64,000 nucleotides of DNA, taken from positions 1-64,000 of the forward strand of contig JAEEJY010000005.1 of assembly GCA_016282155.1 (NCBI GenBank), written 5' to 3'. Below are positions 16,192 to 41,304 of the stretch, in pieces. The notes under the pieces were generated by a model that saw only the letters and a program-made list of their open reading frames with translations, was not told where the DNA came from and did no database searches. The position numbers were made by a program, and so were the translations under genes. Position 1 is the first letter of the stretch, and each line of letters opens with the position of its first letter. This stretch comes from Caryophanales bacterium (GTDB lineage: Bacteria > Bacillota_I > Bacilli_A > RF39 > UBA660).

Positions 16192-16220
16192 ATTATAGCA
16201 CTTGAAAAATCAAAGTACAA
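16192..16220 (-). promoter_or_regulatory. rpsU promoter
   Basis: On minus: TTGTAC (16220-16215), 17-base spacer, TATAAT (16197-16192). One of the best sigma-A-type promoters in the window. Confidence 0.8.
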
Positions 16221-16221
16221 G

Positions 16222-16248
16222 AAAAAATGTTTAATTTTAAACGTTTTT
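16222..16248 (-). terminator. Terminator of the CYTH-like gene
   Basis: Inverted repeat AAAAACGTTTA/TAAACATTTTT on minus (one G-U pair), with a T-run, immediately after the TAG stop at 16249-16251. Confidence 0.8.
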
Positions 16249-16710
16249 CTAATTATTTTCTTTATATTTTTTATTTAATTCCGCTAATTCTTCATAAACA
16301 GCGTCACAAGTTTCTTTTAAACCTTCAAAACTAAATACATTACTCATCTCTGGTTCTATGTAACTATCTATTTCAAATTTAATATTTTCCCCTTCATAAA
16401 TTCTTCTTTTACGAACTAAAGTATTATCTTTTCTATATCCTAGAAACTCTAATATATCTTCACAATTTTCTAAACTATCAAACTTAATTTGTTTAGATTC
16501 TTTTCTTACTATTAAATCTTTATTCTCAAGTTTATCTTCTTTAAAATCTAAATACATTTCATCATCTATTTTTGTAATACGAGCGATTATTCCATTATTA
16601 CGATAGATTGTTCTTGTTTCATTTTGTTCTTTAACAAAGGTATATCTTTTAGAAACAAAATCTATATATTCATCTAATTCTTTTACTCTATAGCTATACT
16701 CATATTCCAT
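16249..16710 (-). CDS. CYTH-like domain protein (class IV adenylate cyclase/triphosphatase-like fold)
   Basis: A 153-residue soluble protein. Alternating charged residues at the N-terminus (MEYEYSYRVK), basic/acidic beta strands (TRTIYRNNGIIARITKI, LDFKEDKL, LVRKRRIYEGENIKFEIDSYIEP) and an FSFEGLKE-like element near the end are the layout of CYTH/CyaB tunnel-fold proteins, which bind polyphosphate-containing substrates. The classical ExExK is only partly matched (EYEYSY), so enzymatic activity is uncertain. Start 16710 is supported by GGTGATAAT; the ATG at 16737 lacks a site. The substrate is not predictable. Confidence 0.6.
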   Translation of the reverse strand: MEYEYSYRVKELDEYIDFVSKRYTFVKEQNETRTIYRNNGIIARITKIDDEMYLDFKEDKLENKDLIVRKESKQIKFDSLENCEDILEFLGYRKDNTLVRKRRIYEGENIKFEIDSYIEPEMSNVFSFEGLKETCDAVYEELAELNKKYKENN

Positions 16711-16739
16711 ATTATCACCAGTTAAATTATAACACAAAA

Positions 16740-16763
16740 GTAGTAGATATTTCTATCTACTAC
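16740..16763 (-). terminator. Terminator of the bacteriocin operon
   Basis: Ten-base stem GTAGTAGATA/TATCTACTAC with a 4-base loop, followed on minus by TTTTG. The TAG stop of the last small gene (16753-16755) lies at the loop. Confidence 0.85.
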
Positions 16764-16917
16764 ACATTCCTTCTTCTACTATTTGTCTTGCGTAAGTTCC
16801 TACGTAATTTCCGTACGTAAAAATTACATTTGTGATGACACCTATTAAAGGTATCGATAGAATAACTGCTAAAACAATTAATATTTCTTTAATTCTATCC
16901 TTTTTTAAAGAGAACAT
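16753..16917 (-). CDS. Leaderless bacteriocin-like membrane peptide (54 aa), possible immunity peptide
   Basis: A 54-residue gene too short for routine calling. The peptide starts MFSLKKDRIKEILIVLAVIL, has one hydrophobic span, and lacks a double-glycine leader. Its C-terminus, GNYVGTYARQIVEEGMCSR, lines up with the C-terminus of the neighbouring precursor (GRSVGTAIRRIGTGKICSL): GxxxG, Gly-Thr, Arg-x-Ile, then Cys-Ser. It overlaps that precursor by 13 bases in another frame, so the two are translationally coupled. Working idea: a membrane-retained look-alike that protects the producer, as small immunity peptides do; a leaderless bacteriocin is the alternative. The operon terminator hairpin includes its stop codon. 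Confidence 0.75.
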   Translation of the reverse strand: MFSLKKDRIKEILIVLAVILSIPLIGVITNVIFTYGNYVGTYARQIVEEGMCSR

Positions 16918-17066
16918 ATTTTACCAGTTCCTATTCTTCTAATTGCTGTACCTACACTTCTTCCTAAATCAAGAAATGTATTAATACCACGCGCTATTGC
17001 GTTTATGAATGCAGCTGTTACAGCACCACCTACAATCTGTTTTAATTCTTTGTTTGTTAATTCCAT
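16905..17066 (-). CDS. Double-glycine-leader bacteriocin precursor (53 aa)
   Basis: A 53-residue precursor with leader MELTNKELKQIVGG, matching the class II/C39 consensus of spaced hydrophobic residues ending in Gly-Gly. Cleavage after GG would free 39 residues, amphipathic and cationic, ending GRSVGTAIRRIGTGKICSL and containing a GxxxG motif as in class IIb two-peptide bacteriocins (lactobin A/cerein 7B-like by pattern). A textbook AGGAGG site sits at the end of the preceding precursor gene. The mature part has a single Cys. Target organism and partner peptide are inferred from context only. Confidence 0.85.
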   Translation of the reverse strand: MELTNKELKQIVGGAVTAAFINAIARGINTFLDLGRSVGTAIRRIGTGKICSL

Positions 17067-17074
17067 AAATCCTC

Positions 17075-17212
17075 CTAACGACATTTAAGTGGTCTTACAT
17101 ACCCATCAATTACACCAATTATAAATATAACAATTCCTGCGACTAATAGATATGTTCCAAGTGCACCACCATTAATTTGTTTTAATTCTTGTGTTGTTAA
17201 CTCTTTCATCAT
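17075..17212 (-). CDS. Double-glycine-leader bacteriocin precursor (45 aa), strongly hydrophobic
   Basis: A 45-residue precursor; its leader reads MKELTTQELKQINGG after an extra initiating Met, nearly identical in pattern to the next gene's leader. The predicted mature peptide of 29 residues is very hydrophobic (ALGTYLLVAGIVIFIIGVID), then GYVRPLKCR with a GxxxG (GVIDG) and one Cys. It starts inside the TGA stop of the upstream accessory gene (ATGATGA arrangement), so translation is coupled. With the neighbouring precursor it fits a two-component bacteriocin; a peptide pheromone is less likely, since no histidine kinase/regulator pair is nearby. Either of two adjacent ATGs (17212 or 17209) could be used. 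Confidence 0.82.
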   Translation of the reverse strand: MMKELTTQELKQINGGALGTYLLVAGIVIFIIGVIDGYVRPLKCR

Positions 17213-17619
17213 TTAAAACCTTTCCATATTTTTTTGATAATTTCACTATATAAATTAGTGTTTTCTCTTAACGTATAAAAAGAAACTATACGATCTTTAA
17301 TATTATTACTGCTTTTAATTACAAGTTCATACATTCCCTCTTTATAATTAAGATTAATTAGTTCATATTTAAGCCTTTTATCAGCATAATAAACATTATT
17401 ATTTGTGAATGTTTCTAAATCATCTTGTTTAAGATTTAGATATATATAGTTATCTTTTAAATAGCCAATATAATTATTCTTTTTATCAAACTTATATAAA
17501 ACTATATAAGTCGTGGTAACTAGGAAAATAATATATAATATTAAGAATTTTAGATATATTTTTTCTTCCTTTTTTAATAAAACTTCTTCACTATTATTAT
17601 AAATATCAATCTTATCCAT
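17209..17619 (-). CDS. Bacteriocin-locus membrane protein, probable export accessory
   Basis: A 136-residue protein with one transmembrane segment (about 22-43, LKFLILYIIFLVTTTYIVLY) after a short charged N-terminus, and a C-terminal domain of about 90 residues expected outside. The gene lies between the exporter (8-base overlap) and the precursor genes (stop/start overlap), so it belongs to the same operon. The topology (N-in, one span, external domain) recalls a shortened HlyD/LcnD-type accessory protein of bacteriocin exporters, but no long coiled coil is visible, so homology is unproven. It could instead be an immunity protein. Confidence 0.72.
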   Translation of the reverse strand: MDKIDIYNNSEEVLLKKEEKIYLKFLILYIIFLVTTTYIVLYKFDKKNNYIGYLKDNYIYLNLKQDDLETFTNNNVYYADKRLKYELINLNYKEGMYELVIKSSNNIKDRIVSFYTLRENTNLYSEIIKKIWKGFK

Positions 17620-19648
17620 TTAGTAAAACACCATCTTCTAATTTTATAATTTTACTGAATAAATCATGATTATTATCTCTATGTGATACAAATATAAAAG
17701 TTTTATCTTTATAGTAAGTAAATATATTTTTTAATATCATACGTTCTAATTCAATATCTACTTGGCTTAATCCTTCATCAATTAAAATAACATCACTATT
17801 TTTAAGTAAGGCACGAGCTAAAACAATACGTTGTTTTTCACCACCCGAAATATTAAAACCATTCTCCTCAATTACCATATTATAACCTAAATCATTATTC
17901 TTTATGATTTCATCAACATAACACATTTTAATAACATTTCTAACATCATCACTATCATAAATACCAATATTATTAATTAAAGTATCTGTAAATAAAGTTT
18001 CGTTTTGGGATATATAAGTAATCTTTTCTTTTAAATTACTTACATCATTTATATCTAAGTTGTCTAACTTTATTACATCTCTTTTTACTTTCAAGTAGCC
18101 CATCAATATCTTTAAAAGTGTAGACTTACCAGATCCTGATTTTCCTAGAAGTAAAATCTTTTCTCCCTTTTTAATATTCAAGTTAATATTTTTTAAAATA
18201 ATGGATTCATTTAAATTTAAAGATAGATTATTTATAGATATATCATCTAGATTTTCTATCTTAAAAGTTTTTTCTTCCCTACTTGAAAACATTTCATATA
18301 CTTTCTTTAAAACTCTTTTAGCCTCAATTAAGCTTACATCTAAATCAACAATATTTCTTACAGGAGCGTGAAAAAAAACTAAAATGGAGTTAAAGGCGAG
18401 TAACGAACCGACGCTTAATGAATTATTACTTACTAGTTTAACACCAATAAAAAATAATATAAGTTCACTAGTTATACTTACTAGTTCCTTTAGATGTATC
18501 TGGATATTTAAAAAATTATCCATATTAATTAAAGCTTTTAAATATCTTACATATCTATTTTCATATCTTTTGATAATTTTATCTTCGACATTAAGATTTT
18601 TAACTGTTTCAAAGCCACTTATGCTTTCTTCTAAAAAAGAAGCAACTTCACTTTTATTTTGATAGACATTTTCAGTCTTGGAGGCGATTATTCTTTTACA
18701 TAAGAATATTATAATTACATATAATATTAAGAATAATAAGGAGATAAAAAATAATTTATAACTAATAATAATTAAAATTAAAGCAGAAACCAAAGTAAGT
18801 GGAACATCTAAAAACATAATTAATATTACTTTATTAATAATATTTCTTACTTTATCTAAGTCCATTATTTTAGTTACAACTTCACCTGTTGTACGGTTAC
18901 GATAATAATGATATGGGAGGTTAATAACTTTATTGATTGCGTCCATATTAAGTTCTAAATCTATTTTTTCATTAATAAAAATTAATAATTTATTTCTTAA
19001 ATAATCACTAATAATTTTAAATAAATTAAAACTTAAAAAAGCCCAAAAGATCAAATCTATATAACTATGGTCATCAATATTATCAAAAAGGATTTTTAAG
19101 TAAAATGAAGTCCCTACAGAAAGGATCATATAAATAAACGAAATAAAAAATAAATGAGACAATTCTTTGTGATATTTTTTTATAATATTTAAAATTAATT
19201 TTTTTAGAGATACTTCATTATTCTTAATTATAGGTTTAACAGGATATAAAAATATCGCAACATCAGAATAGATTTTTTCTAGTTCAAAGAAAGTAATCTT
19301 TCTTACTTTAGTAGCAGGATCTCCTACTATTAAATATTTCTTTTTAAAATTAATTTTGTAAACAACCATAAAGTGTTTATACTTATCATCAATTACAACA
19401 TAAATGATAAAGGGATATATTGTATTGACTTCTGACATTTCTTTTAAAGGTGCTCTTACACCTCTAGCGTTAAATCCTAATTTTTTAGCTACTTCAATAA
19501 TATTAAAGGCAGTAGTACCATTTTTTGTTGTATGTAACAGTTCATTTAAATCATCAATTGATACATACCCGTTATAATATTTTATAATCATTTGTAGTGA
19601 TGCTGACGCACAATCTTTAACACCACTTTGCTTTGTATGTGGATACAT
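17612..19648 (-). CDS. Bacteriocin-processing ABC exporter with N-terminal C39 peptidase
   Basis: A 678-residue peptidase-transporter that removes double-glycine leaders and exports the peptides. The C39 domain occupies residues 1-140, with the Gln/Cys pair in KQSGVKDCASASL (Cys 13), His in KHFMVVYKI (about 92) and Asp in VGDPA. A six-span ABC membrane domain covers about 160-440. The ATPase domain (about 470-678) has Walker A LLGKSGSGKST, signature NISGGEKQRIVLARALL, Walker B VILIDEG, and the H-loop in FVSHRD. The D-loop region reads DEGLSQVD instead of the usual DEATSALD. AGGAGGTAATAAT precedes the start. It is first in an operon with the accessory protein and three small peptides. Confidence 0.95.
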   Translation of the reverse strand: MYPHTKQSGVKDCASASLQMIIKYYNGYVSIDDLNELLHTTKNGTTAFNIIEVAKKLGFNARGVRAPLKEMSEVNTIYPFIIYVVIDDKYKHFMVVYKINFKKKYLIVGDPATKVRKITFFELEKIYSDVAIFLYPVKPIIKNNEVSLKKLILNIIKKYHKELSHLFFISFIYMILSVGTSFYLKILFDNIDDHSYIDLIFWAFLSFNLFKIISDYLRNKLLIFINEKIDLELNMDAINKVINLPYHYYRNRTTGEVVTKIMDLDKVRNIINKVILIMFLDVPLTLVSALILIIISYKLFFISLLFLILYVIIIFLCKRIIASKTENVYQNKSEVASFLEESISGFETVKNLNVEDKIIKRYENRYVRYLKALINMDNFLNIQIHLKELVSITSELILFFIGVKLVSNNSLSVGSLLAFNSILVFFHAPVRNIVDLDVSLIEAKRVLKKVYEMFSSREEKTFKIENLDDISINNLSLNLNESIILKNINLNIKKGEKILLLGKSGSGKSTLLKILMGYLKVKRDVIKLDNLDINDVSNLKEKITYISQNETLFTDTLINNIGIYDSDDVRNVIKMCYVDEIIKNNDLGYNMVIEENGFNISGGEKQRIVLARALLKNSDVILIDEGLSQVDIELERMILKNIFTYYKDKTFIFVSHRDNNHDLFSKIIKLEDGVLLNG

Positions 19649-19758
19649 ATTATTACCTCCTACTTATAACATACAAAGTATTTTTCTGATTTCCTTTTTA
19701 TTTTTTTAACTTTTTTAGGTTTTGCAAAAGTTATATTTTTACTTATTTATAAAAACAA

Positions 19759-19792
19759 AAAAATAGTAAAATGTTTAAATCTTACTATTTTT
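19759..19792. terminator. Bidirectional hairpin between recD2 and the bacteriocin operon
   Basis: Stem AAAAATAGTAA/TTACTATTTTT around a 12-base loop, with A-runs before and T-runs after, in the 201-base gap 19649-19849. It can end recD2 transcription. The rest of the gap is A+T-rich; no convincing -35/-10 pair for the bacteriocin operon could be picked out. Confidence 0.7.
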
Positions 19793-19849
19793 TATTTATA
19801 AATATATTTAATTTTAAAAATTTAGTTTTTCTTATAAAATTTTTATATT

Positions 19850-22039
19850 CTATTTTTTATTAATTACACTAATAATTCTATCTTTAAGACTAGTATTTCT
19901 TACGATATTAGATTCATTTTTAGCACAAGTTAAGAATGAATTTAAATCTCCTATAACTATTAATTTTCTCTTAGCTCTTGTTACCCCAGTATATAGAAGT
20001 TTACGATATAGCATTCGTTTATAAGAAGGACATATTGGCATAACTACCATTTCAAATTCACTACCTTGACTCTTATGAATACTAATAACAAATCCATGCT
20101 TAATTTTATTTAGTTCTTTAACAGGATACATAACTATATTCCCATCAAAATCAATTTTAAACACTTCTTTACCTTTAACTAATTCAATAGCAAGAATTAC
20201 TCCAATATCGCCATTATATACATTTAATTCTGGGATATTAACTAATTGTAAGACTTTATCTCCTACACGATAAATTATATCACCCGAAACATATTCGTCC
20301 TTTTTAGGACTCTTAGGATTAAATATTTCTTGTAGTTCATTATTTAAATTATCAATACCATTTATTCCTTTATAGATAGGTGCCATTATTTGAACTCTCT
20401 TATAATCATAGCCTTTTATGATTAACCTCTTACAAATAACTTTAAGATTATGAATAATTGAATTACTATCGCATTCTAAGAATACAAAATCATCTTTCTT
20501 TTCTTTAATAGTTTCACTTATTTCATTATCTCTTATTTCCATAGCAAGAGTATTTATATAAGAATTTTCTTCTTGGCGATAAAGTAAATTTAAATAAACT
20601 GTATTAATCATTTCTGAATCAATTAAATCACGTAATATTTCTCCCGGTCCAACACTAGGAAGTTGGTTATAATCTCCTACTAAAACAAGTTTAACATTAC
20701 GTTTAATACCACGAAGTAAAGACGCAAATAAATTAGTATCTATCATACTTACTTCATCAACAATAACAAGTTCTTCCGGATTAGGATTAAATTCATCAAC
20801 ACCAAAACGATTACTATCTTTATCCCATTTCAAATAACGATGAATAGTTGAAGCAGGATAAGCTGTTGCTTCACTCATACGCTTACTTGCTCTTCCTGTT
20901 GGAGCAAGTAAAGCTAATTTTTTATCAAATTCACCGATTGAATAGCCTTTTATACGACGATATGCTTCAGTAATTGCTTTAATAATAGTTGTTTTACCAG
21001 TTCCTGGACCTCCCGTAATAATAACTATATCATTATTAATAGCAAGTCTAATCGCAGCTTTTTGGTCATCGTTATATTCAATATTTAAATCTTTTTCTAT
21101 CGCTTTAATAATTAAATCTACATCTTCTACTTTTTCTGTTAATCGACTGGATAAATAGGCTACTGTATCTGCAATATAGTTTTCATTATCAAACATATCT
21201 TTTAAATAATAATGTTTATTATAATAAATTATCTTATGACTTGTTTCTAGATCATATAAATAATTATCAAAATCATCAATTAATATTTCTTCATGTAAGT
21301 AATTTTCTAAGGCACTATAAATATTTTCATATTCTAGATATGTATCTCCTGATTCAAAAGTGAGACTTTCCATAACAAAAATTATACATGCTTCTATCCT
21401 CTTAGCTTTATCATGAACTAAATCCTTACTTGTTGCGATTAAATCAATCTTAGGAAAATTAAGTTCATCTAATTCAATTAAATCATAAATATTATTATTT
21501 ATAATGTCTTTAGTACGTTTTTTAAAACGATTATAAATAATCATAGCTTCTTTAATATTAAAACCTATCTCCGTTAAATATACATATATTTCATTACTTT
21601 CTTCATACTTATTTAAAGTATCAATGATTGTATTTTTCTTTTTTAAAGTTAATTTAGGTATACCATCTAATGCTTCATTATTATTTAAAATAATATTTAA
21701 AGCATCACTACCTAAGCGATCAACAATACTCTTTGCCATACTAGGACCAATTCCTGGGAATAAATCACTAGATAAGAATTCAATAACTCCTACTTTATCT
21801 GTAGGTTTTACTTTCGCATAACTCGTTACACTAAATTGTTTTCCATATTTACTATGCGTTGTGAATTCTCCTGTAAAAGTATATTGATCATCGATTACTA
21901 GTTCATGGAAAAAACCCGTAAATGTTACGGTTGTATTAATATATTCTTTTTCACTACATTCTTTTATTCGAAATAATCCAACAATATATCCTTTATCAGT
22001 TTGATATATTGTTTTTTTAAATATACCAACTATTTCCAT
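19850..22039 (-). CDS. recD2: RecD2-type ATP-dependent DNA helicase
   Basis: A 729-residue SF1B helicase (5'-3') linked to DNA repair and replication-fork stability in bacteria without RecBC. The N-terminal OB-like and helix-hairpin-helix region (about 1-280, with FPGIGPSMAKSIVDRLG and GIPKLTLKKKN) is typical of RecD2 rather than RecD. The motor has Walker A TGGPGTGKTTIIKAI (about 346), Walker B VIVDEVSMID, the RQEENSYIN region, and motif VI GVTRAKRKLIVIGD in a UvrD-like C-terminal domain with HKSQGSEF. AGGAGGG upstream fixes the start. It follows the DUF1292 gene closely and may share its transcript. Confidence 0.95.
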   Translation of the reverse strand: MEIVGIFKKTIYQTDKGYIVGLFRIKECSEKEYINTTVTFTGFFHELVIDDQYTFTGEFTTHSKYGKQFSVTSYAKVKPTDKVGVIEFLSSDLFPGIGPSMAKSIVDRLGSDALNIILNNNEALDGIPKLTLKKKNTIIDTLNKYEESNEIYVYLTEIGFNIKEAMIIYNRFKKRTKDIINNNIYDLIELDELNFPKIDLIATSKDLVHDKAKRIEACIIFVMESLTFESGDTYLEYENIYSALENYLHEEILIDDFDNYLYDLETSHKIIYYNKHYYLKDMFDNENYIADTVAYLSSRLTEKVEDVDLIIKAIEKDLNIEYNDDQKAAIRLAINNDIVIITGGPGTGKTTIIKAITEAYRRIKGYSIGEFDKKLALLAPTGRASKRMSEATAYPASTIHRYLKWDKDSNRFGVDEFNPNPEELVIVDEVSMIDTNLFASLLRGIKRNVKLVLVGDYNQLPSVGPGEILRDLIDSEMINTVYLNLLYRQEENSYINTLAMEIRDNEISETIKEKKDDFVFLECDSNSIIHNLKVICKRLIIKGYDYKRVQIMAPIYKGINGIDNLNNELQEIFNPKSPKKDEYVSGDIIYRVGDKVLQLVNIPELNVYNGDIGVILAIELVKGKEVFKIDFDGNIVMYPVKELNKIKHGFVISIHKSQGSEFEMVVMPICPSYKRMLYRKLLYTGVTRAKRKLIVIGDLNSFLTCAKNESNIVRNTSLKDRIISVINKK

Positions 22040-38234: not shown

Positions 38235-40298
38235 CTAATAAACGGGGGCGATAGTAGCATCAAAACCATAATATTCATTTACAATATTATCAGTTCTAAA
38301 TACAATTTTAATGTAATTGCCTGGAACAGTAATATTAGTGGTTAAATTCTCGCCTTTATTTACGAATCCACCATATTTACCAAACGTACTACTTGAACCA
38401 TACACATATACCCAATCATAGCTTGTACTTTCAGTAGCATAATTAAGGATGACTTCAATACTTGTTGCACCAGGGAAAGTATTTTCATAATATACAACAT
38501 TATCAATGTTATTTGCGTATGGATTATGTTCTGACTCAACATATATTTGATCGGTAAGCTCTATATCTGTTACATTAGCATTAATAGAAGGCATAGTAAA
38601 TTTTCTGTCATTAATCAAAGTACCATTCATTTTAAAACTAACAATTTTTTTATTCTGAGCTTTTAATGTGATATTAGTTCCTGGATAAGCACGAGATAAT
38701 GATGGTGTTACAGTTGAATCACTAACTGTAATAGTATGTTTAGCAGGGCATGAAACTTCAGTAACATTAACTCTATTACTATAGTTAGCCGTAGCTAAGA
38801 CACTTTCAATATTAGCAGGACTATAATTACCACAGTCTAATCTAATATTTACTTGTCCATACTGTGCGGCATTTCTTAAGAAACTATTATAATTACCATT
38901 AGAAGCATCAAAATTTAAAGTAAAACTTGTATTTAAATATGGATTTTCTTCAAACATATAACTAATATTTTCAACATTGGAAAAGTCGAAATTTGAAATA
39001 TTTAAATTTTTTACATTACGTCTTGCAAACATACCACCCATATTAGTAACATTACTTGTATTAAAATTACTTAAATTTAAATCTAAGGTTGCTCTTACTT
39101 CACTTGCCTCATCTTCACCTTCCTCATCTATTGAAAACATACCACCCATATTAGTAACATTACTTGTATCAAAATTACTTAAATTTAAAGTCTCAAGGGA
39201 ATAGCAGCCATTAAACATATTACCCATATTAGTAACATTACTTGTATTAAAATTACTTAAATCTAAAGTCTCAAGGGAATAGCAGCCCCTAAACATACCT
39301 GCCATACTCTCAACATCACTTGTATCAAAATTACTTATATTCAAATTTTTGAGCGACTCGCAATATTCAAACATACAATCCATATTAGTAACATTACTTG
39401 TATCAAAACTACTTAAATCTAAAGTCTCAAGGGAATAACACTCCTCAAACATACTTATCATACTCTCAACATTACTTGTATCAAAACTGCTCAAATCTAA
39501 AGTCTCAAGGGAATAATTACATTCGAACATAAAAGTCATATTGTAAACTTTACTTGTATCAAAATTATTAAATTCATATTTTCTTACATTCTCAAAATCG
39601 TAAAATAATTCTTCACTATCCCCCGGAGCAAATATTTTATAATCCGATATTACATATAAATCAAACGCTGGGGTTTCTGGTGGTGCCCCAGGACACACGG
39701 CATTAGGAGGACATATAGATCTATCACGAATATTTCCATTTCTAACTAAATAAGCTGTTATCATTCCAGGCTTTGAACCAACATCATACGAATAATAATA
39801 TTCACTTGGAGCATCATCATATCCAAAAGTTACGGAAATAAGTTGGTGTGGATCTATATAATCCCCATGTCCGCATTCTTTTTCATCCATTGGGCAGGCA
39901 AAATTATAATTCAAATATAAATCTTCATCAACAAGATGAATACTACAGCTTACTATTTTTAAATCATTTCTTGTTCCACTAACACAATACTTACCATTTG
40001 ATATTCTATCTGCATAATAAGTATTATCTCTATATGTTATTTTACCCTTTGTAAATTGCTCTTTATTATTAATATCTATATCAATATTTTTGGCGTTTAA
40101 TCCGTTTGAAGGGAACGTTTTTCCGTTAGAAGCATATTCTTCATCTACCGCTGTTAGAAGGCCATAAACGCTCACTTTAAAGGCATCTTTTTCTCTTTTA
40201 TCAATGATATAATTAGTTACTGGTACAACAATAACAATAATTAATCCAAGAAGAGTAATTATTGCTATTAATTCAACTAGCGTAAATCCCTTTTTCAT
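38235..40298 (-). CDS. Prepilin-like protein fused to BspA-type leucine-rich repeats
   Basis: A 687-residue exported protein. It begins MKKGFTLVELIAIITLLGL, a class III prepilin signal (cleavage after Gly, Glu at +5), then a pilin-like helix. After a Cys-containing spacer, about residues 236-450 hold BspA/DUF285 repeats of about 24 residues with core LSSFDTSNVTNM and GMF. A glycine-poor beta module with KMNGTLINDRKFTMPS (about 515-580) and a CUB-like terminal domain (about 590-687) follow. It looks like a minor pilin or pseudopilin carrying a large adhesin. ATG 40298 has AGGAGG; the earlier start at 40370 is unlikely. The next gene upstream is another prepilin, so they are probably assembled together. 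Confidence 0.83.
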   Translation of the reverse strand: MKKGFTLVELIAIITLLGLIIVIVVPVTNYIIDKREKDAFKVSVYGLLTAVDEEYASNGKTFPSNGLNAKNIDIDINNKEQFTKGKITYRDNTYYADRISNGKYCVSGTRNDLKIVSCSIHLVDEDLYLNYNFACPMDEKECGHGDYIDPHQLISVTFGYDDAPSEYYYSYDVGSKPGMITAYLVRNGNIRDRSICPPNAVCPGAPPETPAFDLYVISDYKIFAPGDSEELFYDFENVRKYEFNNFDTSKVYNMTFMFECNYSLETLDLSSFDTSNVESMISMFEECYSLETLDLSSFDTSNVTNMDCMFEYCESLKNLNISNFDTSDVESMAGMFRGCYSLETLDLSNFNTSNVTNMGNMFNGCYSLETLNLSNFDTSNVTNMGGMFSIDEEGEDEASEVRATLDLNLSNFNTSNVTNMGGMFARRNVKNLNISNFDFSNVENISYMFEENPYLNTSFTLNFDASNGNYNSFLRNAAQYGQVNIRLDCGNYSPANIESVLATANYSNRVNVTEVSCPAKHTITVSDSTVTPSLSRAYPGTNITLKAQNKKIVSFKMNGTLINDRKFTMPSINANVTDIELTDQIYVESEHNPYANNIDNVVYYENTFPGATSIEVILNYATESTSYDWVYVYGSSSTFGKYGGFVNKGENLTTNITVPGNYIKIVFRTDNIVNEYYGFDATIAPVY
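38960..39560 (-). repeat. Tandem BspA-type repeats, about 69-72 bp per unit
   Basis: At least eight in-frame copies of a near-identical unit, core ACTAGTAATGTTAC-type on minus (Thr-Ser-Asn-Val-Thr), inside the pilin-adhesin gene. One copy is interrupted by an acidic insert (SIDEEGEDEASEVR). Near-identity at DNA level suggests recent expansion. Confidence 0.85.
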
Positions 40299-40320
40299 AA
40301 AATGCCTCCTATCTAAGTTT

Positions 40321-41304
40321 CTAACCAATAGTTTCGATATCACTTGTTTCATTTGCTTCTTCTTCACCATAGCCTGGACCCATAACAGTTACTTTCTTAG
40401 TAGCCGTCGCCTTATTACCTGTTTCATCTGTTGCTGTGTAAGTAATTGTATAAGTTCCTGGTATACCTAAGGCTAAATTAGTCTTAATATTTACTTTTGG
40501 TTCTACATCATAATTATCTGAAACTAAAATATAATCATATGCATTAAATTCAGTTTCATAATAAGGTATTTTTACATCCTGAGGCGATACTATAATAATA
40601 GGAGCTGATATATCCTTTACTGTTACAGTTCTCTCAGTTACTGAATTTTTATTTGATAAATAAGTATTTGTGTAAATTAATACATATTTTGCTGGTTCAG
40701 ATGTATCTAATTTTATATCTGTAATTTCATTTACTGATGAATTATAACTATTTATCTCTGTACAAAAGCGACTATCACCACAACCTAAAACTGTAACTTC
40801 CCAAGAAGGATTAGTAATAAAACTGTACTTACCATACATATCAAATCCCGGTTCATTATATTCTGAATTTATATCAATAGTCATCTCTTTATTACCTTTA
40901 AGTTTAGTAAGTCCCGAACTACTACTACAATGACCATCATAATAAGGGCTATCAACATCAATAAAATAGAAATCATAAGTGCCCCCATAAATTTCTACAT
41001 TCAAATATTCGTTACTTCGCGTTTTGTAAAAAGAATTGCTATTTGCATCTTTCGAAGATAAATATCCATCTTTAACAAGATCACTTAATTTAAAGCATTC
41101 TTCTGCATACATAACGCCTGGCGCTAATTTAGTACTTACATAATCTTTTGTTAAATCATAAATAAACTCCCTTTCGGCATCTTCTTTTTCATAACGTGAA
41201 CTTAAAAGCATATCACCTATCTTTGGAAGAGCTAAAGCACTAATTAGTCCTAAAATAATAACTACCGCTAATGTTTCAATTAATGTAAAACCTTTTTTAT
41301 TCAT
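40321..41304 (-). CDS. Prepilin-like protein with Ig-like (DUF5011/HYR) domains
   Basis: A 327-residue exported protein starting MNKKGFTLIETLAVVIILGL, a class III prepilin signal with Glu at +5. The pilin-like N-terminal helix is followed by a Cys-bearing domain (about 60-150) and two Ig/HYR-like domains (about 150-230 and 230-310; GTYTITYTATDETGNKATATKKVTV is the typical final strand pair). A short acidic tail ends the protein. AGGTGTATT precedes the ATG; a TATAAT lies shortly upstream. It is 23 bases from the pilin-adhesin gene and the pair probably forms an operon of surface-pilus components. No pilus ATPase or prepilin peptidase is in the window. Confidence 0.83.
   Translation of the reverse strand: MNKKGFTLIETLAVVIILGLISALALPKIGDMLLSSRYEKEDAEREFIYDLTKDYVSTKLAPGVMYAEECFKLSDLVKDGYLSSKDANSNSFYKTRSNEYLNVEIYGGTYDFYFIDVDSPYYDGHCSSSSGLTKLKGNKEMTIDINSEYNEPGFDMYGKYSFITNPSWEVTVLGCGDSRFCTEINSYNSSVNEITDIKLDTSEPAKYVLIYTNTYLSNKNSVTERTVTVKDISAPIIIVSPQDVKIPYYETEFNAYDYILVSDNYDVEPKVNIKTNLALGIPGTYTITYTATDETGNKATATKKVTVMGPGYGEEEANETSDIETIG

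Follow-up and report, generated by a model that had tools for sequence, protein, structure and literature searches.

Loci for bacteriocins are as a rule accessory and patchily distributed. When a pair of GG-leader peptides is near-universal and vertically inherited across an apparently uncultured order, the question arises whether "bacteriocin-like" peptides can belong to the core physiology of bacteria. Such a pair is encoded, together with a C39 exporter, in a stretch of 64,000 nucleotides (contig JAEEJY010000005.1 of assembly GCA_016282155.1, positions 1 to 64,000), hereafter the window, from a Caryophanales bacterium of the family UBA660 in the order RF39, whose members are predicted to be mostly thin-walled (PMC10868615).

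Organization of the operon

The operon is transcribed in the order exporter, accessory protein, peptide A, peptide B and peptide C (Table 1). All five genes were found where the initial annotation had placed them, with the claimed sizes and leader ends, and the GxxxG motif and single C-terminal Cys that it had described are present in all three small peptides. The genes are tightly packed, with overlaps of 8 nt between exporter and accessory gene, 4 nt between the accessory gene and A and 13 nt between B and C, and a gap of 8 nt between A and B. A perfect AGGAGG ribosome-binding site lies 4 nt 5' of the ATG of B at 17066, and B is therefore taken as a protein of 53 rather than of 59 aa. Since C starts within the end of B, its translation is probably coupled to that of B. 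The hairpin behind C is the only terminator-like site across 16200-20000, where 0.4 are expected by chance, and thus the operon plausibly ends there, ahead of an unrelated CyaB-like gene. This gene (16249-16710), which gives a below-cut-off match to the class IV adenylate cyclase CyaB (CYTH-type), is no consistent neighbor of the operon in relatives.

Table 1. Features of the operon in the window (16740-19648).
Feature	Position	Strand	Characteristics
PCAT exporter, peptidase C39-containing ABC, 678 aa	17612..19648	-	C39, ABC membrane and ATPase domains
Accessory protein, one-span, 136 aa	17209..17619	-	ORF overlapping exporter by 8 nt
Peptide A precursor, 45 aa	17075..17212	-	leader MMKELTTQELKQINGG, ending in KQINGG
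Peptide B precursor, 53 aa	16905..17066	-	leader MELTNKELKQIVGG, ending in KQIVGG
Peptide C, 54 aa	16753..16917	-	leaderless; start inside end of B
Terminator-like hairpin, just after C	16740..16763	-	10-pair stem, loop of 4, T-rich tail

The exporter and the accessory protein

The exporter matches the Pfam domains PF03412 (3e-31), PF00664 (5e-40) and PF00005 (1e-27), all three above their gathering scores, and among solved structures the bacteriocin transporter PCAT1 and ComA come closest to it. With TIGR01193, the model of peptide cleavage/export ABC transporters, it reaches 385 bits, which is below the cut-off of 523.85 bits. The C39 residues Cys13, His92 and Asp110 are intact as originally annotated, and so is Gln7; none of the four is substituted in the 109 aligned exporters of the family, an alignment with gaps in nine rows at the first two catalytic positions (Gln7, Cys13) and in one row at the third (His92). 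Moreover, the Walker A Lys, the signature Ser, the Walker B Glu and the switch His are invariant across the aligned family exporters. The protein is thus predicted to cleave and export GG-leader peptides, and it is the only full-length C39 exporter match in the genome of the window. A scan of this genome with the profile of peptide A returned A itself, the leader of B and one weak match (E 0.22), which was rejected as a further cargo, as it does not cover the leader columns.

The AlphaFold2 model of the accessory protein (pLDDT 87) has a single hydrophobic membrane helix (residues 21-41), in agreement with the one-span protein proposed before, followed by the strands of a small beta domain (43-122) and a C-terminal helix. 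The protein was found in 84 of the 110 family loci. It matched no Pfam family, its model had no significant match among PDB folds, and a profile comparison with one plasmid LcnD-type accessory protein gave 0.5%, which is no detectable homology. The idea of a shrunken LcnD/HlyD protein was therefore rejected, and a role in export is inferred from the gene position only.

The peptides A and B

Mature A (ALGTYLLVAGIVIFIIGVIDGYVRPLKCR) has 29 aa, a mass of 3133.8 Da and a GRAVY of 1.40, and forms a hydrophobic helix with GxxxG and a C-terminal Cys, whereas mature B (AVTAAFINAIARGINTFLDLGRSVGTAIRRIGTGKICSL; 39 aa, 4018.7 Da, pI 11.5, helical moment 0.73) is a cationic amphipathic helix with the same two features. 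Both are strongly conserved in the family loci that have both peptides: the GG leader is present in 99/100 copies of A and 98/100 of B, GxxxG in 96/100 and 100/100, and the C-terminal Cys in 97/100 and 100/100, respectively. Gly16, Gly37 and Cys44 are invariant in the family alignment of A, as are Gly14, Gly35, Gly39, Arg44 and Cys51 in that of B. A profile comparison of A with B aligned mostly the leader.

Peptide A of the window is above the cut-off of the leader model TIGR01847 and scores 21.2 with the NCBI class IIb model TIGR03949, against a cut-off of 21.5. Among its relatives, 36 of 45 match TIGR03949, with values up to 4.6e-10; when ten of them were run singly six exceeded the cut-off of 21.5, and many matches span nearly the full model. 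The model of lactococcin G-beta/enterocin 1071B is matched by 25 of the 45 as well, under its cut-off. B is above the cut-off of the generic leader model TIGR01847 only, and its matches to known families are mostly due to the leader. The class IIb pattern that had been recognized, two GG precursors with a dedicated C39 exporter, is thus supported.

Two loci differ in arrangement. One genome (L163 5878-6451) contains two tandem A/B pairs, the second without the conserved C-terminal Cys, and in another locus (L026, 450-1472 downstream of the exporter end) a methyltransferase-like gene lies between A and B, which are about 700 nt apart and both kept.

Peptide C is a putative membrane-tethered relative of B

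Peptide C consists of a charged N-terminus, a membrane helix and a B-like end of the form GxxxGTxxR...C. The profiles of B and C align with a probability of 95% (E 4e-8) over 38 columns, which is the whole of mature B, whereas the comparison of A with C gave 0.8%. The short alignment of B and C could partly reflect convergent membrane-helix composition, but then A versus C gives nothing. At least two net positive charges are found within the first 14 residues in 58 of 66 copies, and the terminal Cys is common in C, though not universal. C is present in 68 of the 100 family loci with enough sequence, so that about one third is without it, and about 17 gains or losses are counted on the exporter tree.

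On the basis of these profiles, C appears to be a relative of mature B in which the leader is replaced by a charged membrane anchor, and in the best reading it is a B-like segment held in the membrane of the producer. For C, a role as immunity or partner peptide is therefore more likely than secretion as a third precursor. The predicted N-inside membrane anchor also argues against a leaderless bacteriocin. The earlier description of C as a leaderless look-alike holds insofar as C has no leader and resembles B, but it is rather an anchored, profile-level relative. No known immunity family was matched, neither an immunity gene nor a regulator was recognized in the operon, and about a third of the loci lack C. 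The designation "complete producer system" was therefore too strong.

Distribution within and beyond the family

Homologs of the exporter (E <= 1e-60) occur in 252 of 291 genomes of the same family, which represent 142 of 150 genera, and most of these genomes have a single copy. The locus of the window and 109 loci from relatives were compared, and in 100 of these 110 both A and B lie 3' of the exporter, always A before B and with a median spacing of 8 nt; most of the other ten have one clear peptide or are truncated where a contig ends. A lack of conservation of the small ORFs next to the exporter would have spoken against the initial annotation; instead they are conserved in >100 loci, which rules out chance ORFs or an oddity of one strain. 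The gene order of the operon is fixed across relatives, and rpsU follows downstream in 45 of the 72 loci with enough sequence. In family members with an exporter too diverged for the E <= 1e-60 search the pair was still present where it was read.

At the level of the order, all sampled genomes of which belong to this one family, matches to the B profile (E-values down to 1e-25) came from 138 of 146 genomes and 74 of 76 sampled genera. B was missing from eight genomes: in G242 the exporter lies at the edge of a contig, and in the remaining seven there is no C39 domain. As a control, a C39 domain was detected in 5/5 comparison genomes with exporter or B and in 0/7 of the checked genomes without B. 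The peptides are therefore retained where the exporter is and lost where it is lost, and loss of the whole operon is also seen in otherwise near-complete genomes.

Outside the family, the A and B profiles gave no full-length match in 258 genomes of the same class: nearly all hits were leader-only, besides two short internal A matches in long reading frames. A scan of the genome collection with the exporter returned distant matches only. The operon is a specific genomic marker for the order, and it is not a compact pair confined to one strain.

Inheritance and selection

A FastTree phylogeny of the exporter contains 29 genera with at least two members, in 63 rows. These need 28 genus changes, the minimum, and all 29 multi-member genera therefore stay intact. 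The exporter distances correlate with those of linked genes (Mantel r 0.80 for yqeY, 0.64 for rsmD and 0.51 for rpsU), and the values for A and B are lower (0.32-0.53). Linked genes could in principle move together with the exporter; yet yqeY, rsmD and rpsU are core genes. A mobile bacteriocin cassette was rejected, since identity to the best plasmid exporters does not exceed about 33% and the genera are intact on the exporter tree. The operon is therefore a near-universal, vertically inherited set of a whole order, which is not the usual pattern of a bacteriocin.

A and B are under purifying selection. Among close pairs, the median dN/dS of A (0.24) and B (0.21) is near that of the exporter (0.20), and C (0.32) and the accessory protein (0.36) have higher values; for rpsU, yqeY and rsmD it is 0.08-0.16 (with few pairs for the latter two). 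A, B and the exporter hence evolve faster than the neighboring core genes that were compared. No sign of overall diversifying selection was seen, in averages over short genes that are compatible with single fast sites.

Comparison with known systems

The operon resembles the class IIb bacteriocins of the lactobin A/cerein 7B (TIGR03949) and lactococcin G/enterocin 1071 (NF038034, NF038035) types in its adjacent GG-leader gene pair, its dedicated C39 ABC exporter and its short, membrane-seeking peptides with GxxxG. Unlike these, it is order-wide, near-universal and vertically inherited, both A and B end in a conserved Cys, the third peptide appears to be a tethered relative of B, the accessory protein is not recognizably LcnD-like, and there is no recognized immunity gene. 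Like the immunity proteins LagC, CbnZ and LciM, C is a putative membrane protein encoded with the two peptides. These proteins are described as having little mutual similarity, and how immunity to two-peptide bacteriocins works has been called a mystery (PMC6957408). In contrast, C would itself be related to the bacteriocin-like peptide, with 54 aa and a single helix. Should it be an immunity peptide that arose from a copy of the toxin, the immunity mechanism of a two-peptide system would become directly testable with peptides of 29, 39 and 54 residues.

Small GG-leader peptides that are encoded together and secreted via a C39 transporter are also known from the cyanobacterial EbfG1-4/PteB system. 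However, EbfG1-4 are larger (6-7 kDa), unrelated and have a proven role in biofilm formation, and no tethered copy is described in the passages considered. Furthermore, the C39 exporter of the Mbov_0121 family (NF045998) belongs to mycoplasmas, a related wall-poor lineage, but the exporter of the window reaches only 282 bits with this model, far under the cut-off of 500, and the match of the accessory protein to NF045999 (9.5 bits) is not significant.

The initial annotation had considered the pair as possibly undescribed, and this part stands insofar as no description of the two-peptide operon was found in the searched literature. Bacteriocins go unmentioned in a 2020 survey that covered RF39 and related genomes (PMC7301438). 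The large gut catalogue of class II bacteriocins made with IIBacFinder, as far as it is summarised in PMC12648078, may list single peptides of these genomes, its tables lying beyond that search.

Possible functions

In our estimate there is an even chance that the operon encodes a two-peptide system of the class IIb kind that is inherited vertically. A and B would pair via GxxxG in a membrane, and C, as tethered relative of B, would probably protect the producer. Directed by their leaders, A and B would reach the exporter's C39 domain, which would cut both after Gly-Gly during export and release mature peptides of 29 and 39 aa. Mature A, a putative membrane-spanning helix, and mature B, a putative cationic amphipathic helix, may then pair through their conserved GxxxG faces like two-peptide bacteriocins. 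The pair would permeabilise the membrane, most likely of competing close relatives; killing by A and B is a candidate activity. C would remain in the membrane of the producer, its N-terminus facing inward and its B-like GxxxG segment outward. There it would most likely substitute for B as partner of A and so protect the producer. What the sequences show is the gene order, the leaders, the intact residues of the exporter, the conservation, the co-loss and the relation of C to B, and from these the cleavage, pairing, permeabilisation and role of C are deduced. Several points stand against this reading: the operon is near-universal and usually present once per genome, the purifying selection on A and B is at the level of the exporter itself, C is lacking in about a third of the loci, the accessory protein is not recognizably of LcnD type, and B matches bacteriocin models mainly via its leader. 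Beside the operon, no immunity gene other than C was recognized.

The near-universal presence of the system and the lack of C in a third of the loci make a core function a serious rival, although a less probable one: the exported A and B would return to the membrane or surface of the producer and, together with C, serve envelope integrity, adhesion, biofilm formation or contact between cells instead of killing. This is in line with the restriction of the operon to the order, with vertical inheritance (29/29 multi-member genera intact, exporter distances tracking linked core genes with r 0.51-0.80), with a dN/dS of 0.21-0.24 for A and B compared to 0.20 for the exporter, and with the fact that neither a regulator nor a separate immunity gene was recognized. 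There is precedent, as GG peptides and a C39 exporter are needed for the biofilm in Synechococcus (PMC4997328), and HetC of Nostoc, a GG-peptide system with another function, acts in heterocyst differentiation (PMC10986499). However, relatives of A exceed the cut-off of a class IIb bacteriocin model, the combination of peptide pair, GxxxG and cationic B is textbook class IIb, the whole operon is lost in otherwise near-complete genomes, and A, B and the exporter evolve faster than the compared neighboring core genes. Thus, a core function explains universality, vertical descent and the lack of a recognized immunity gene better than a weapon does, whereas a weapon fits the class IIb match and the whole-operon losses better. 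That a genome-reduced order uses an exported two-peptide complex and its tethered relative as a core, non-antimicrobial part of the envelope, built from bacteriocin parts, is in our view rather unlikely. The operon is also a warning that the mining of genomes may mistake core peptides of gut bacteria for weapons.

It is improbable that A and B act as secreted signals (pheromones) of the ComC or BlpC kind. Exporters of the C39 type serve pheromones as well, and the ComC and BlpC models give weak matches to A and B at the level of the leader, but in most loci viewed no histidine kinase, response regulator or cytoplasmic receptor is seen next to the operon (L037 being one exception), mature A is a membrane helix with a GRAVY of 1.4, and two conserved membrane-seeking partners with a tethered copy would be unexpected for a signal. 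It is very improbable that C forms a third, leaderless component of a secreted toxin. C resembles mature B, is encoded alongside it and has GxxxG and often the terminal Cys, but it has a GG leader in none of the 47 copies listed, starts with positive charges and a hydrophobic helix that predict an N-inside membrane protein, and is absent from about a third of the loci that keep A and B.

Further GG-leader proteins and a putative surface protein

A link to the C39 system of mycoplasmas was rejected, as only one of six mycoplasma-like genomes gave a weak match, below the cut-off. The leader-only matches in such genomes turned out to be unrelated GG proteins of 130 aa and of 88 and 73 aa. The former is a conserved protein with a GG-type leader (KDIKGG or similar) that adjoins rplU (L157 8039-8431, L158 1470-1862, L159 6114-6506), in mycoplasma-like genomes with a G+C content of 23-26% in which no strong C39-exporter match was found. 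The latter two are adjacent GG-leader proteins of a related mycoplasma-like genome (L160 7107-7601) and possibly represent an independent peptide pair. In the window itself, positions 38235-40370 encode a 711-aa protein with PARCEL repeats (TIGR02167), which is likely a surface protein.
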